This document shows, piece after piece, positions 8,310 to 22,263 of a stretch of DNA of 28,850 bases; position 1 is the first letter of the stretch; every line of letters starts with the position of its first letter. The notes below the pieces were generated by a model. That model searched no databases. It had not been told where the DNA came from and worked only from the letters and a program-made list of their open reading frames with translations. Source of the DNA: Saccoglossus kowalevskii (Eukaryota; Hemichordata; Enteropneusta; Harrimaniidae). The stretch is taken from contig NW_003126885.1 in assembly GCF_000003605.2 (NCBI RefSeq), forward strand, positions 314,219 through 343,068. The letters run 5' to 3'. The position numbers and the translations under genes are program-made.

Positions 8310-9054
8310 ACCAAAAAAGCTGATTTGCTGCACTGGGTAAATAGTCGCATACTTGGATACCTGGCGACCGCGTTTTATGTGCGTGGTCATGTGTATGCGA
8401 CATTGACTTCATTTGGTTAAAGATGTATACATATTGCTATCCTCAAATCCAAAAAATGACCTTATCACAGTCTGTAACATATCCACTTGCCGTGTTTTGT
8501 TTATCTGTCCAATTTGTAAGTAGAATACTTGCAAAGTATAACAACCAAAGTATTTCACATGAAGTGTACTTAAATATCGATGAATCGGCCTGTGAAGTTT
8601 GCTCACAATGGGAAATAGTCTTGTAGTCGCCATACCTGTGCTAAGGTGCGTTTTTGTGAAGGGAAATATTAAGCCAAGGCCACTGTCTGGCCAAAATGTG
8701 TTGTTATTTTTCAAAACGGAAAATGGATTTCGTTTTCCCTTAACCGCCATGCATGAATCGAACGTGGGAACTTACATAACTATAACATTCGTCCATTTTA
8801 ATTTATCTTATTAGTCGAAATACGATCGTGCCAAGTACTCAACCTTGAGTTAAGGGTTCGCTAGATTTTGAAGATTAAAGCCTGTTAAACTGTAAATAAA
8901 ACAAGGCTACCTGACATGTCCGACAGATATTTTCACGGCAACTCTCATGTCTTAAAATCACACTATATCGAATGGCGAAGAAGTGAGTAATCCTTGCTAA
9001 CGTAAAACATGAATTCTCGAGCTACACATAAGCCACTGATGACCTCATTCTTAG
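8310..9054. other. non-coding DNA upstream of the 33-bp array
   Basis: Overlapping open frames on both strands (8409-8814) have no recognisable domain. ATGGCGAAGAA with a GTGAGT donor at 8972-8983 and a TTAG acceptor at 9051-9054 is described in the findings. Confidence 0.4.
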
Positions 9055-10660
9055 TATTCATATTCGGGTTGTAAACGGAAACACTTGTATTCATATTCGG
9101 GTTGTAAACGGAAACACTTGTATTCATATTCGGGTTGTAAACGGAAACACTTGTATTCATATTCGGGTTGTAAACGGAAACACTTGTATTCATATTCGGG
9201 TTGTAAACGGAAACACTTGTATTCATATTCGGGTATGTAAACGGAAACACTTGTATTTATATTTAGGTTGTAAACGGAAACACTTGTATTCATATTCGGG
9301 TTGTAAACGGAAACACTTGTATTCATATTCGGGTTGTAAACGGAAACACTTGTATTCATATTCGGGTTGTAAACGGAAACACTTGTATTCATATTCGGGT
9401 TGTAAACGGAAACACTTGTATTCATATTCAGGTTGTAAACGGAAACACTTGTATTCATATTCAGGTTGTAAACGGAAACACTTGTATTCATATTCGGGTT
9501 GTAAACGGAAACACTTGTATTTATATTCAGATTGTGAACGGAAACACTTGTATTCATATTCAGATTGTAAACGGAAACACTTGTATTCATATTCAGATTG
9601 TAAACGGAAACACTTGTATTCATATTCAGATTGTAAACGGAAACACTTGTATTCATATTCGGGTTGTACACGGAAACACTTGTATTTATATTTAGGTTGT
9701 AAACGGAAACACTTGTATTCATATTCGGGTTGTAAACGGAAGCACTTGTATTCATATTCAGATTGTAAACGGAAACACTTGTATTCATATTCGGGTTGTA
9801 AACGGAAATACTTGTATTTATATTTAGGTTGTAAACGGAAACACTTGTATTCATATTCGGGTTGTAAACAGAAGCTCTTGTATTCATATTCAGATTGTAA
9901 ACGGAAACTCTTATATTCATATTCAGGTTGCAAACGGAAACACTTGTATTCATATTCGGGTTGTAAACAGAAGCTCTTGTATTCATATTCAGATTGTAAA
10001 CGGAAACTCTTGTATTCATATTCAGGTTGTAAACGGAAACTCTTGTATTCATATTCAGGCTGTAAACGGAAACTCTTGTATTCATATTCAGGTTGTAAAC
10101 GGAAACACTTGTATCCATATTCGGGTTGTAAACAGATACTCTTGTATTCATTTTCAGGTTGCAAACGGAAACTCTTGTATTCATATTCAGGTTGTAAACG
10201 GAAACTCTTGTATTCATATTCAGGCTGTAAACGGAAACTCTTGTATTCATATTCAGGTTGTAAACGGAAACACTTGTATCCATATTCGGGTTGTAAACAG
10301 ATACTCTTGTATTCATTTTCAGGTTGCAAACGGAAACTCTTGTATTCATATTCAGGTTGCAAACGGAAATTCTTGTATTCATATTCAGGTTGTAAACGGA
10401 AACTCTTGTATTCATATTCAGGTTGCAAACGGAAACACTTGTATTCATATTCGGGTTGTAAACAGAAGCTCTTGTATTTTTATTTAGGTTGTAAACGGAT
10501 ACTCTTGTATTCTTATTCAGGTTGTAAACGGAAACTCTTTTATTCATATTCGGGCTGTAAACAGATGCTCTTGTATTTTATATTCAGGTTGTAAACGGAA
10601 ACAGTTATATCCATATTCGGGTTGTAATCGGAAACTCTTGTATTCATATTCAGGTTGTAA
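9055..10660. repeat. 33-bp minisatellite, about 48 units
   Basis: The unit begins TATTCATATTCGGGTTGTAA and continues ACGGAAACACTTG. The left part (to about 9500) is nearly uniform. The right part carries variants (CAGG or CAGA for CGGG, CTCTTG for CACTTG, AACAGAAG for AACGGAAA) arranged in larger blocks. A 2-bp insertion at about 9235 shifts the frame once. As 33 is a multiple of three, two plus frames (YSYSGCKRKHL, IHIRVVNGNTC) and two minus frames (KCFRLQPEYEY, SVSVYNPNMNT) are open. Each unit holds TTGTAAAC, close to a forkhead core. There is no evidence of a gene product. Confidence 0.97.
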
Positions 10661-10789: not shown

Positions 10790-11066
10790 ATTATTCACAC
10801 GACGGACTACTTCTCTAATATTACTGACATGTATACATACACAATGGACTACTTCTCTAATATTACTGAACTAGTCTCATGTATTCATACACGATGGACT
10901 ACTTTTGTAATATTACTGGACTAGTCACATGTATACATACACAGTGGACTACGTTTCTAATATCACTGAACTAATCACGTGTATCCATACACGATGGTCT
11001 ACTCCTCTAATATTACTGGACTAATCACATGTATCCATACGCGATGCACTACTTCTCTGATATTAC
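10790..11066. repeat. 50-bp minisatellite family, block 1 (about 5 units)
   Basis: The units contain GGACTACTTCTCTAATATTA, then CTGGACTAGTCACATGTAT and CCATACAC. Spacing is about 50 bp and divergence moderate. The same family and orientation recur at 11431-11818 and 14858-15790. Confidence 0.9.
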
Positions 11067-11430: not shown

Positions 11431-11818
11431 GACTAGTTTCATATATCCATACACAATGAAATATTTCTCTCATATCACCAGCCATTCACATGTATCCATA
11501 CTCGTTGGACTTTTTTCATATCATTGGACTAGTGACATGTATCCATACTTAATGGACTACTTCTCTAATATTAACAGACTAATCATATACATCTATACAC
11601 GACCGACTACTCTTCTAATATCACTTGACTAATCACATGTATACACGGTGGACTACTTCTCTAATATCACTGGTCTAGTTACATGCGTTTATATACAATA
11701 GACTACTTCTTTAATATCACTGGACTAATCACAGCCAAACACGATGGAATGATCAATTATCCATATACACGACAGACTATTTTATTATCACTGAACTTAT
11801 TTACACATATCCATACAT
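11431..11818. repeat. 50-bp minisatellite family, block 2 (degenerate, about 7 units)
   Basis: Diverged copies of the unit in block 1, with indels and lost segments. The open frame at 11252-11632 runs into this block and is not a gene. Confidence 0.85.
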
Positions 11819-14857: not shown

Positions 14858-15790
14858 ATAGACGACTAATTACATCTCTCTAATATCACAAGGCCATTCA
14901 CATTCATTCACAATGGGCTTCTTCTCTAATATTTCTGACTAGTTACATGTATCCATACACAGTTGAATACTTCTCTAATATTACTGGACTAGTCACATGT
15001 ATCCATACACGATGGACTACTTCTCCAATATTACTGGACTAATTACATGTATCCATACACAATGGACTACTTCTCTAATATTCCTGACTAATCACATGTA
15101 TCCATACACAATGGACTACTTCTCTAATATTTCTGGACTAATCACATGTGTTCATACACAATGGACTACTTCTCTCATATTACTTGACTAGTCACATGTA
15201 TCCATACACGATGGGCTTCTTCTCTAATATCATTGGACTAATCACATGTATCCATACATGATGGACTACTTATCTAATATCACTGGACTAATCACATGTA
15301 TCCATACATGATGGACTACTTCTCTAATATTACTGGACTAATGACATGTATCCATACATGATGGACTACTTCTCTAATATTACTGGACTAATGACATGTA
15401 TCCATACATGATGGACTACTTTTCTAACATTACTGGACTAATCACATATCCATACACAATGGACTACTTCTCTAATATCACTGGACTAATCACATGTATC
15501 CATCCATGATGGACTACTTCTCTAATATTACTGGACTAATCACATATATCCATACACAATGGACTACTTCTCTAATATCACTGGACTAATCACATGTATC
15601 CAAACATGATGGACTATTTCTCTAATATCACTGGACTAATCACATGTATCCATACATGATGGTCTCCTTCTCTAATATTACTGGACTAATCACATGTATC
15701 CATACACAATGGACTACTTTCCTTATATTACTGGACTCGTCACTTGTATCCAAACATGGACTACATTTCTAATATCACTGGACCAGTCAC
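14858..15790. repeat. 50-bp minisatellite family, block 3 (about 18 units)
   Basis: This is the longest and most uniform block; between about 15240 and 15720 units differ by only a few bases (ATCACATGTATCCATACATG recurs every 50 bp). It follows a TA microsatellite. Edge units are more diverged than the central ones, as expected when unequal exchange homogenises the middle. Confidence 0.95.
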
Positions 15791-18264
15791 AGCAGAATAA
15801 ATCAGTTCTGCAATTAAAATGTGTGTATCTGTACTCTATACAAGGCACAACTGTGCATCTGTAGGCACTGCTATATGACTGGATGAGTTGCATGAATAAC
15901 TAACTACATCCCTGCTATTACAGATTGTCACACAAATCCTACAGTAGATGAGTGACAACTCGCATGTATCTTTTCATGTGGGACAGATTTAATATTATTC
16001 GACTCGAAAGAATGCGTCCCAGCTCATGAATACGCAAGAAATGTTCATATGTACACTATCCTGGACATATTCCAATCTTAACAATCAACCAATATTATAG
16101 AATTCCAAAACATCTGGATATGCGCCAATGGTATTGATGGGGCAGTATCAGAAAAGAGGTCTCCCATGTCATTGTCTGGCAAAATGCCAGGGACTACAAA
16201 ACCCAGCGGAGCCCTCCAATAACAGCACTCATGTCCTGTTTACAGCGAGTCAGGAATGTACTCGCACTGCTAGAATCAGTCAGTCATGAAACAATCCTGC
16301 AAGCAATTTGAAAACCACATTCAACAGAAACGCATTCTGTTTGACGAAGAATCATATCAACTTGGGAGTCCTGCAAAACCACTTTAAACACAGACAACTT
16401 TCACATTTGTCTTCATATAAGTTGGTTAAAAGGTAGTATTGGTATTTGCTTTGTTTTTTATTACAAGAGGTGTTTGTCAATTTTAGATAGTTTCGACATT
16501 AAAGGACACTGTTGTTTCACCCGACTTTATTTGCAATACTTACCACTTTAAATGTTTGAAACTGTGACAAGGCTGTGACGACGTCACCTGCGCATAAGTC
16601 AGATGGCCATAGCGTACGATTGTTTACATTTTTAGCACGTGTTGTTAACGTCACTTGAGAGTCAATTCGCGTGTATGCACAGGTGAGGACCCTCCTGCTT
16701 TAAGTCAACTTCAGGCACGATCCACAAAATAGTTCCATTTAGAGTCTAAACTGTTGCAAAAAATTTTGATTGAAAACTAAAAGCAATGTGACATTTTGTC
16801 CATTTGGTTCAAAAATTAAAATTTAATTACAGAAAATGTGAACAAAAATATGGGTGGGGAAAAATTTGGCACTAGAAGGGTTACAGACAATGCAGACACA
16901 CCACCAACCATCCATCCATCTAAGGCACAAATGAGACAGATAGTATGTTTATCTCAAGTGACAAGTTTATTTGAAAGAGGCATTTTGTTTGCACCCAGGC
17001 TTTATTTTAGGGAGCAACAGGAAAATCCATCATTGCTGGTGGGGGATGTTTGTGATATGAAAGAAAAGAAATTCTTATGAAAATTCAGCAGATACAGATA
17101 TAAATACAAGATATACAAAAAAAAAAGTAACCATGGCAACTAAAATGTAAATTTAAGTGTGATAAACTTGATCATAAAAAAATGATATGAAGAAAGCTTT
17201 ACTAAAATAAATATTTTTATATCGGCCATACTACATTTGATCTACAGGGATATTTTTCGACAAACTTTTATTTCAGATTTACTAATTGCACTTAAGCTCA
17301 GACTGTTGTCATATGACTGTCAAATCAAGTGCTGATGAAGCACTTCAGAGATGCGAGAATAAAGTAAGTTTCAAAACTACACCTTTTGGCTTTTGGGTTG
17401 TGTTGTAATCAGTTATTTATAGTATTATAGCAAATATGTGGCTTAAAAAAGGTATTTTTATTTATCTAGTTTTATTTACTTATTTTTATATATTTATTGA
17501 CAATCATAGATCAAAACGCACTAAATCAGTGAACAATATCCTTCTGTATGCATTTATACAAAAAGCGTGACTTGCACTAAAGATGTTTTACTGACTGTGC
17601 TCAAAATCTGTATTTACTATAATAGGCAGTGCTCACACATGTAAAACAAAAGTTTGTTTTAAGCAGTTTCAATATCTTTTTAAGGATAGAAAATAGATAC
17701 TGCCCTCACTGTGGAATTGAAAAGAGTGGTATCAATAGGCACTTCATATATGCACCATAAGCAGGAACAAGATTATTGAAAGTGCATCAAGTGTTGTGGG
17801 GGAGAGGTACAGGAAGAGGCACGTAAATCTTTTAATTTACCATTATATCACAACATAAAATTTTAAATTAAAAAAAAAACAATACACTTCTGATAAACAC
17901 TAAATAAAATGCAGATGTACATATATATTAAAATTTGTGTGAGCTTTTGCGCTTTGTGATAAAATCTGATAAGACAGTATGTAACTGAAATATTGCTCAG
18001 ATTACACAATGAAATGTGATCATTTTTAGGGTTCTCAATAGGTTCAGAAAGTGAAACTGATACTATTATCTATTACGAAATTCAAAAATGCCAAAATAAC
18101 TTTCACTGGATGCATATCTCCATATTGTCAATCAGAGTGATATATATCTCATGAATTATTTTACAATATTAGAACATCTACAAAGGAAGGGGTAGTATTC
18201 CATGCATTATATGAAAGAAAAAAAATATTTCGATTTTGCATGCCTGTTTTTATGTGTTACTTCA
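15791..18264. other. AT-rich non-coding DNA with the CRE/E-box cluster
   Basis: A minus-strand acceptor (ggttttgcag, about 16378) precedes 28 open codons (DSQVDMILRQTECVSVECGF onward). Open frame 16838-17080 (plus) and a stretch ending AATAAA|gtaagt at 17353 are exon-like but unlinked. At 17700-17760 the plus strand reads CPHCGIEKSGINRHFIYAP-stop, a partial C2H2-like finger lacking the last histidine. Confidence 0.3.
16575..16657. promoter_or_regulatory. possible promoter cluster: CRE-like sites and E-box
   Basis: GTGACGACGTCAC (16575-16587), CACGTG (16636-16641) and AACGTCACT (16647) lie within 80 bp of locally GC-richer DNA in an AT-rich area. On the minus strand a good donor (AAAGTG|gtaagt, about 16541) lies just downstream, with an open frame of about 50 codons before it. 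That would fit a first exon on the minus strand. It could equally be part of an unrecognised dispersed repeat. Confidence 0.25.
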
Positions 18265-18560
18265 ATAGCCCCCAAGGTATTTCCATATTACATTGGGACC
18301 TGGAAACTCATTCATTCAAAACAATTAAGCTACTATCAAAGTCTTTCTCATCCCCTGTGTACTTCAACAGTCCTCACTGTACCCTATTTTACATCAGGAC
18401 CTGGGTACACGTTCATTCAAAATAATTAAGCTACTATCAAATTCTTTCTCATCCCCAGTCTACTTCAACAGTCCTCACTGTACCCTATTTTACATCAGGT
18501 CCTGGGTACACGTTCATTTAAACATTTAAGCTTTTTTTTGAAATTCTTTCTCATTCCAAA
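18265..18560. repeat. 100-bp tandem repeat, about 2.5 units
   Basis: AATTAAGCTACTATCAAA occurs at 18323 and AATTAAGCTACTATCAAATT at 18424, with a diverged third copy near 18524, giving a period of 100-101 bp. Units share TCTTTCTCATCCCC, CAACAGTCCTCACTGTACCC and GGGTACACGTTCATT. Units 1-2 and 2-3 are highly similar where complete. Confidence 0.9.
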
Positions 18561-20195: not shown

Positions 20196-20897
20196 TTAAC
20201 TTTTTCACCACCAGACTTCAATATTTCTGGAAAGGAGCCCTATTTTTATATTCTTCAATATTTCTGGAAAGGAGCCCTATTTTTATATTCTTCAATATTT
20301 CTGGAAAGGAGCCCTATTTTTATATTCTTCAATATTTCTGGAAAGGAGCCCTATTTTTATATTCTTCAATATTTCTGGAAAGTAGCCCTATTTTTATATT
20401 CTTCAATATTTCTGGAAAGGAGCCCTATTTTTATATTCAATATTTCTGGAAAGGAGCCCTATTTTTATATTCTTCAATATTTCTGGAAAGGAGCCTTATT
20501 TTTATATTCTTCAATATTTCTGGAAAGGAGCCCTATTTTTATATTCTTCAATATTTCTGGAAAGGAGCCCTATTTTTATATTCTTCAATATTTCTGGAAA
20601 GGAGCCCTATTTTTATATTCAATATTTCTGGAAAGGAGCCCTATTTTTATATTCTTCAATATTTCTGGAAAGGAGTTTTATTTTTATATTCTTCAATATT
20701 TCTGGAAAGGAGCCCTATTTTTATACTCTTCAATATTTCTGGAAAGGAGCGCTATTTTTAAAGCCAACACACAAAATTTTAGTCGATTTTCAGTTTGCCT
20801 ATTTTTGTCTCAATCTTCTCAAGGAAAGTGCAGACTATAAACGAGACTATTTTGTGAATTTGTGATGAAAATAGGGAACTGGTGGTGAAAAGGTTAT
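20196..20897. mobile_element. TTAA-type MITE with internally amplified 37-bp unit
   Basis: This is a sister of the element at 21669-21913. It has TTAA at 20196-20199, left end CTTTTTCACCACCAGACTTC and right end CTGGTGGTGAAAAGG followed by TTAT at 20894-20897 (one base off TTAA). The right half (20761-20893) aligns with the short copy, sharing AATTTTAGTC, AGACTATAAA and TTTGTGATGAAAATAGGG. The left half is replaced by 15 tandem units. The element grew from about 240 to about 700 bp by array expansion. Confidence 0.8.
20217..20757. repeat. 37-bp minisatellite, 15 units, inside a MITE
   Basis: The unit contains TTCAATATTTCTGGAAAGGA followed by GCCCTATTTTTATATTC. Fifteen copies are nearly identical; two have lost 3 bp (34-bp units) and a few carry point changes. 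Because 37 is not a multiple of three and no stop is present, one frame reads through 189 codons with a rotating peptide. This is not a gene. Confidence 0.95.
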
Positions 20898-21419: not shown

Positions 21420-22263
21420 CTATATGCAACACATGAAAAACAGTGAGAAATGATAAGTTACCATATGATACCAACCATCTAAATGACAAATGTGTTTGTG
21501 TGTGTGAATGAATAAAATAAAACTTGTCAATTTGATGGCATAATACATCTTACAAACTACAGAAGTGTAACACGTATGCATAACATACTGCTGTGTACAC
21601 TTGACAAATAATAGTGACATGTAAATTCATTGAAATTAAAATATTAATCATACATAATTGTTTAATTATTAACCTTTTCATCACCAGACTTTCTAGCCCA
21701 AATTTTTTTGCACTTTTTTCTTAAATTCTTCATTATTTTTGGAAATGAACCCTAATTTTAGAGCTAACAGAAACAATTTTAGTCAATTTTTAGTTTTTAC
21801 TCAAAAGATTTGGCTATTGTCCCAATCGTCTGAAGGAAAGTTTAGACTATAAATGGAACTATTTTGTGGATTTGTGATGAAAATAGGGAAAGAACTGGTG
21901 GTGAAAAGGTTAATATACTAACGGCAAAACTGTTGAGTATCATTAATTGCGTTAATAAAAAAAACCTTGATATGAAATTAATATCTGAGTTATTCCAAAA
22001 TAGGACTCTAAAAACTACATCCATCACTCTTGGTCCATTTGAGAATATGAATGACCTTGATAGTAGAGATGTTCCATTCTTATTCGTAATGAGGTGATAA
22101 AACCAAATCAGAACCAAATGATCCAGAAATTTGAAAGATTTAAAGAGATACAGTGAATTAAGTACAACTAATGATTGTTTATGGTGTTAGCTACATGGTT
22201 GAAATGTTATAGCGAGTGCAATAACCTAGAAACAGTCTTTCCCCATCTTATCTTTTTTCCATG

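Follow-up and report, generated by a model that had tools for sequence, protein, structure and literature searches.

Tandem arrays within the interior of MITEs have already been published, and the locus described here, element A, is a further example of this known route to tandem repeats. The Xstir/Xmix MITE of Xenopus (Hikosaka and Kawahara 2004) is presented as a case of riding tandem repeats in the passages on it in PMC2872659, PMC9659126 and PMC12628747. Like element A, it forms tandem arrays from partial MITE sequence, and PMC2872659 describes an internal part of a piggyBac-MITE. It differs in comprising three structural types in several Xenopus species, according to the same passages, whereas A is one array copy in one genome. 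The amplified part of Xstir is given as the terminal inverted repeat in a table of PMC9659126 and as internal in the relevant text of PMC2872659 and PMC12628747.

The miDNA4 element of Xenopus tropicalis (Scalvenzi and Pollet 2014) also carries an internal monomer or array in variable number, and short direct repeats are proposed as the driver of its changes in the sections that treat it (PMC9659126, PMC12628747). These sources place it with Tc1/mariner and credit its authors with suggesting capture of an existing repeat, whereas A has TTAA ends and an array apparently built from its own interior. The BrickBuilt MITE of Porphyromonas gingivalis resembles A as an inverted-repeat element with a tandem 23-nt repeat of 1 to 22.8 units; it is, in contrast, bacterial and described in 19 forms in one strain with a copy-dependent unit number (PMC4596501).

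The family of A also resembles the CMITEs of the coral Acropora, for which PMC2872659 reports, in the part concerned with them, a TTAA target and CC[C/T]T ends, the left end of family VI being CCCTTTCACTGCCA. Their interior is common to families with different ends, as is seen for 16705-16895 versus 21669-21913 at our locus. CMITEs differ in their length of ~100 bp and in forming tandem arrays of whole elements (PMC2872659, same part).

Element A and its relatives in the window

We analysed a stretch of 28.85 kb as a whole, hereafter the window, which is contained in a genome of 572,110,611 bases in 4830 contigs. The features referred to below are as follows.

20196-20897: element A, a TTAA-ended inverted-repeat element of 702 bp whose interior is a 15-unit array of 37 bp
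20196-20214, forward strand: left terminal inverted repeat of element A, including the TTAA target site at 20196-20199; 18-nt arms with 94% complementarity to 20879-20896
20216-20760, forward strand: 37-bp minisatellite of 15 units (units 6 and 11 of 34 bp), from Tandem Repeats Finder and unit splitting
20254-20578, forward strand: copy 1 of a likely five-unit block (182-bp shift), 6 mismatches to 20436-20760
20761-20878, forward strand: right half of the MITE in single copy, homologous to other family members
20879-20897, reverse strand: right terminal inverted repeat of element A; target site TTAT (20894-20897), which matches TTAA in all but one base
21669-21913, forward strand: element B, a single-unit short family member of 245 bp with TTAA at both ends
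16705-16895, reverse strand: distant relative; 33-bp core 97% identical with 21839-21871; different end GTAACCCTTCTAGTGCCAA; profile E 9e-11
Family end sequence: TTAACCTTTTCACCACCAG

The inverted ends span 18 nt at 94% in element A and 21 nt at 95% in element B. Allowing up to 3 mismatches, a 19-base end pattern matched the window four times, namely at both ends of A and of B, where shuffles expect 0.02 matches. The sequence-only reading had held that the ends and right half of A match 21669-21913 and that the array triples the length of the element. Both statements proved correct: the right half of A is 78% identical to B over 195 columns with 16 gaps, 21 of the 23 left-end positions are identical, and the two elements measure 702 and 245 bp. 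For the distant relative at 16705-16895, comparison with B indicates that the interior is more conserved than the ends, as in the coral CMITEs.

A TTAA target site duplication and terminal inverted repeats starting with CC[C/T]T are both present. The family is short and multi-copy (244-bp consensus, 41 copies besides B) and, as judged from this length, non-coding. The CC[C/T]T rule for the ends of piggyBac/TTAA MITEs is taken from the passage stating it in PMC2872659, and CCCTT is given as the most conserved start motif in the corresponding part of PMC10813416. CCTT starts both the family consensus and the right end of A, whereas the left end of A, with CTTT, deviates by a single change. By target site and CC[C/T]T ends alone, the element would fit the piggyBac/TTAA group. 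Our preferred reading, which we consider probable, is that element A is a single inserted copy of a MITE of the non-autonomous TTAA/piggyBac type, and that 37 bp of its interior were duplicated in tandem and grew to 15 units. The element has no evident function.

Searches outside the family returned the end pattern at 5 loci in viral and 24 loci in bacterial/archaeal contigs. We took these as chance matches, because a facing second end (up to 3 mismatches) was absent from the fetched stretch at 29/29 loci; a few lie near the stretch edge (e.g. L003, L012, L021, L026, L029), where a partner end could be cut off. The 20-base pattern of the unit had 0 matches in viral contigs. No phage record matched, and Rfam and tRNA searches each gave 0 hits. 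Of the 51 stop-to-stop frames with at least 70 aa, 10 were compared with Pfam, which gave a single match at E 0.1, below the cut-off, and the end sequence, entered in four forms as words, matched 0 papers.

Family copies and the junctions of element A

With all of A as query, a genome search that scored 40 of 2489 first-look candidates returned 51 matches. Besides A itself, these matches represent 40 places, a copy matched in both its left and its right half being counted once. The 39 stretches fetched cover all 40 places and contained one extra copy (L075), giving 41 copies. Judging from the absence of element B itself from the listed matches, this census is incomplete and tilted towards A-like copies. 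Left out of the 41 were a second piece in L058 (region 54-163 of the consensus) and, by E-value, a 49-column fragment in L076.

The copies have aligned lengths of 191-252 bp, and 37/41 reach both ends of B within 8 bases. Their majority consensus comprises 244 bp, from which the 41 copies differ by 3.7 to 16.5%, A (left end, last unit and right half) by 8.9% and B by 9.1%. Of 43 rows (the 41 copies, A and B), 19 retain TTAA at each end; A has TTAA and TTAT.

Set against this consensus, the left junction of element A joins GACTT directly to CAATATT, between which the consensus has 39 bp more, with CTT bounding both sides. We interpret the missing 39 bp of the left arm as lost by deletion between two matching triplets, CTT/CTT. 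The right boundary of the unit in A is TATTTTTAAAGCC. A T-rich tract precedes the unit in relatives; it is TTTTTATATT in L040, L042, L053, L054 and L074, and such copies would place TTTTTA on both sides of the 37-base unit. In the 31 of the 42 short copies (the 41 and B) with an exact anchor, 9-mers spaced by 37 bases agreed at no more than 3 to 7 of 9 positions at best. The flanking-repeat model of minisatellite birth (Haber and Louis), as outlined in the part of PMC3389668 concerned with it, uses direct repeats of 5-10 bp, and the TTTTTA flanks of the relatives come close to these. Since the seam match in relatives is weak and the left flank of A is missing, we infer rather than observe the first duplication step.

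The preferred reading would then unfold as follows. The MITE, whose TTAA ends are visible, would have inserted at TTAA by means of a piggyBac-like transposase supplied from elsewhere. Slippage or microhomology repair between the bracketing T-rich tracts may have produced the first duplication, and a 39-bp deletion between the CTT matches, at the junctions given above, may have removed the left flank, presumably in this order. Further slippage or unequal exchange, including duplication of a 182-bp block, would have enlarged and homogenised the array.

One further copy carries an internal duplication. In L058, consensus positions 54-163 are joined to 24-244 at a shared TCT, giving two diverged copies of a piece of the element that is different from, and larger than, the unit of A; this fits a general process. 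It is possible in principle, and in our judgement unlikely, that duplication and 39-bp deletion in A were one event, in which excision by a piggyBac-like transposase was followed by gap repair from the sister copy that stalled and switched template at short matches. Were this true, transposition, and not background slippage, would seed minisatellites in the family, and L058, with its TCT, would be a second case.

Distribution and structure of the array

The sequence-only reading had staked its claim on two points, namely that the ends recur elsewhere and that other copies do not all carry the same 15-unit array. The ends recur in the genome copies, and the array of A occurs in 0/41 of the copies read from the genome search, which form a partial census. 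A minisatellite with a score of at least 100 and a period of at least 10 was likewise found inside 0/41 of them. Element A contains 15 ungapped unit cores. Of the 41 other copies, 40 contain a single core each, and L069, with an insertion at this site, has no ungapped core. This count extends 60 bases to each side of a copy, and a second, diverged core in L058, which lies 126 bases upstream and is part of the separate duplication, falls outside it. In a tree built from the right half together with the last unit and shown without support values, A falls among the other copies.

Since the unit is the ordinary interior of the family and 0/41 other copies have the array, we regard the array as a derived change in A's lineage, made, as the alignments indicate, of MITE sequence. 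The earlier picture of a minisatellite being born inside a transposon holds as far as derivation in A is concerned; it gives no age, because tandem arrays homogenise.

Alternatively, the array might be older, having resided in a master copy and spread by transposition, with A as one member of an array-bearing MITE subfamily. Scoring covered 40 of 2489 first-look candidates, and element B, the neighbour at 21669, was unlisted, which leaves room for such members, and unit number varies from 1 to 22.8 between the BrickBuilt copies described for Porphyromonas in the relevant section of PMC4596501. However, although the query contained the whole array, alignment at the 40 places is confined to the right half plus roughly the final unit or, in 10 rows, to the first 89 bases. 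With the array in 0/41 copies read, we consider such a subfamily improbable.

Capture of a pre-existing minisatellite by the MITE is the order reported for miDNA4 in the portion of the review PMC12628747 dealing with it, and minisatellites are common in the sampled stretches. Against this, the 41 other copies have sequence that aligns with the unit at the corresponding position of their ordinary interior, and the transition from array to right half is smooth. A repeat older than the MITE, as in miDNA4, is thus not what these 41 copies display, and we deem capture highly unlikely here.

Growth of the array within element A, our preferred reading, can be followed in its units. Minisatellites are tandem units of ~10-100 bp in many copies, and the array, at 37 bp and 15 units, is one of them. 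Tandem Repeats Finder reported 20216-20760 with period 37, 14.9 copies and 95% matches. Splitting at a repeated motif yielded 15 units, units 6 and 11 lacking CTT (34 bases each); together with the ungapped core count, this corroborates the earlier statement that one internal segment is present 15-fold. The 15th and last unit continues into the right half, which is single-copy. Unit 13 has three substitutions (C20T, C21T and C22T), and units 5 (G17T), 8 (C22T), 14 (T33C) and 15 (C21G) have one each.

The two 3-bp deletions (units 6 and 11) are spaced by five units, as are the two occurrences of C22T (units 8 and 13). At lag 182, 20254-20578 and 20436-20760 align ungapped with 6 differing positions, the whole overlap matching at 332/363 positions; lag 401, which spans both deletions, matches better (138/144) over a shorter overlap. 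When the unit-variant labels were shuffled, 9.6% of 20,000 trials reached two variants shared at a single lag, so that variant sharing by itself does not establish a block duplication. The array likely includes a five-unit (182-bp) block duplication. The hint of such an event previously seen in the shared 3-bp deletion gains from the five-unit spacing, from C22T and from the lag-182 match, the label shuffle alone being weak (9.6%).

Over 542 bp, 7 substitutions and 2 deletions separate the array from its own consensus, and the right half of A differs from the family consensus at 12/138 positions (8.7%). The array is younger than the element, or else homogenised, and the data do not separate these. 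An assembly artefact, or a wrong unit number, is very improbable: near-identical repeats are easily mis-assembled and the array length comes from one assembly, but private and shared unit variants stand in an ordered pattern, and 545 bp should be short for assemblers.

All three forward frames of the unit are free of stops, and three overlapping open frames cross the array. We rejected a protein-coding repeat and regard these frames as a by-product, as a stop-free unit keeps even a period not divisible by three open.

Minisatellite background

Using a score of at least 100 and a period of at least 10 as threshold, we counted 7 minisatellites in the 28.85-kb window (the array of A included), 6 in the 58,452 bases of the 39 stretches and 9 in a 200-kb sample with 79,659 readable bases. 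N made up 120,341 of the 200,000 sampled bases (L078-L097). Stricter arrays (at least 5 copies, score 300) numbered 8 in 138.1 kb, 2 from the 39 stretches and 6 from the 200-kb sample. At this rate, ~0.6 would be expected in the ~10 kb of the 41 copies, where 0 were seen; A was known beforehand. One array among ~40 copies roughly agrees with random placement, and nothing marks the MITE as a special cause. Special seeding of the array by the MITE was rejected as unneeded, because the background rate suffices.

By itself, the array in A alters no view. It is a tidy single-locus record, in which single-unit relatives give the "before" state and internal variants point to block duplication. A full census of the family could measure how frequently arrays start in a fixed sequence against the genome background.

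Two arrays were observed beside family copies. A 36-bp array of 2.5 copies (551-640 in L044) ends at the base immediately preceding a MITE copy, and within 1-841 of L058 a 96-bp array of 5.7 copies abuts the internally duplicated copy, overlapping the partial duplicate by 3 bases. Within the window itself, a 33-bp array of ~49 copies occupies 9054-10660; because its period is a multiple of three, both strands are open over ~400-520 codons. One 50-bp unit occurs in three separate arrays within 5 kb (10797-11066, 11552-11748 and 14905-15791), a pattern that would fit splitting or reseeding of a single array. A unit of 101 bp is repeated 2.4 times at 18288-18532.
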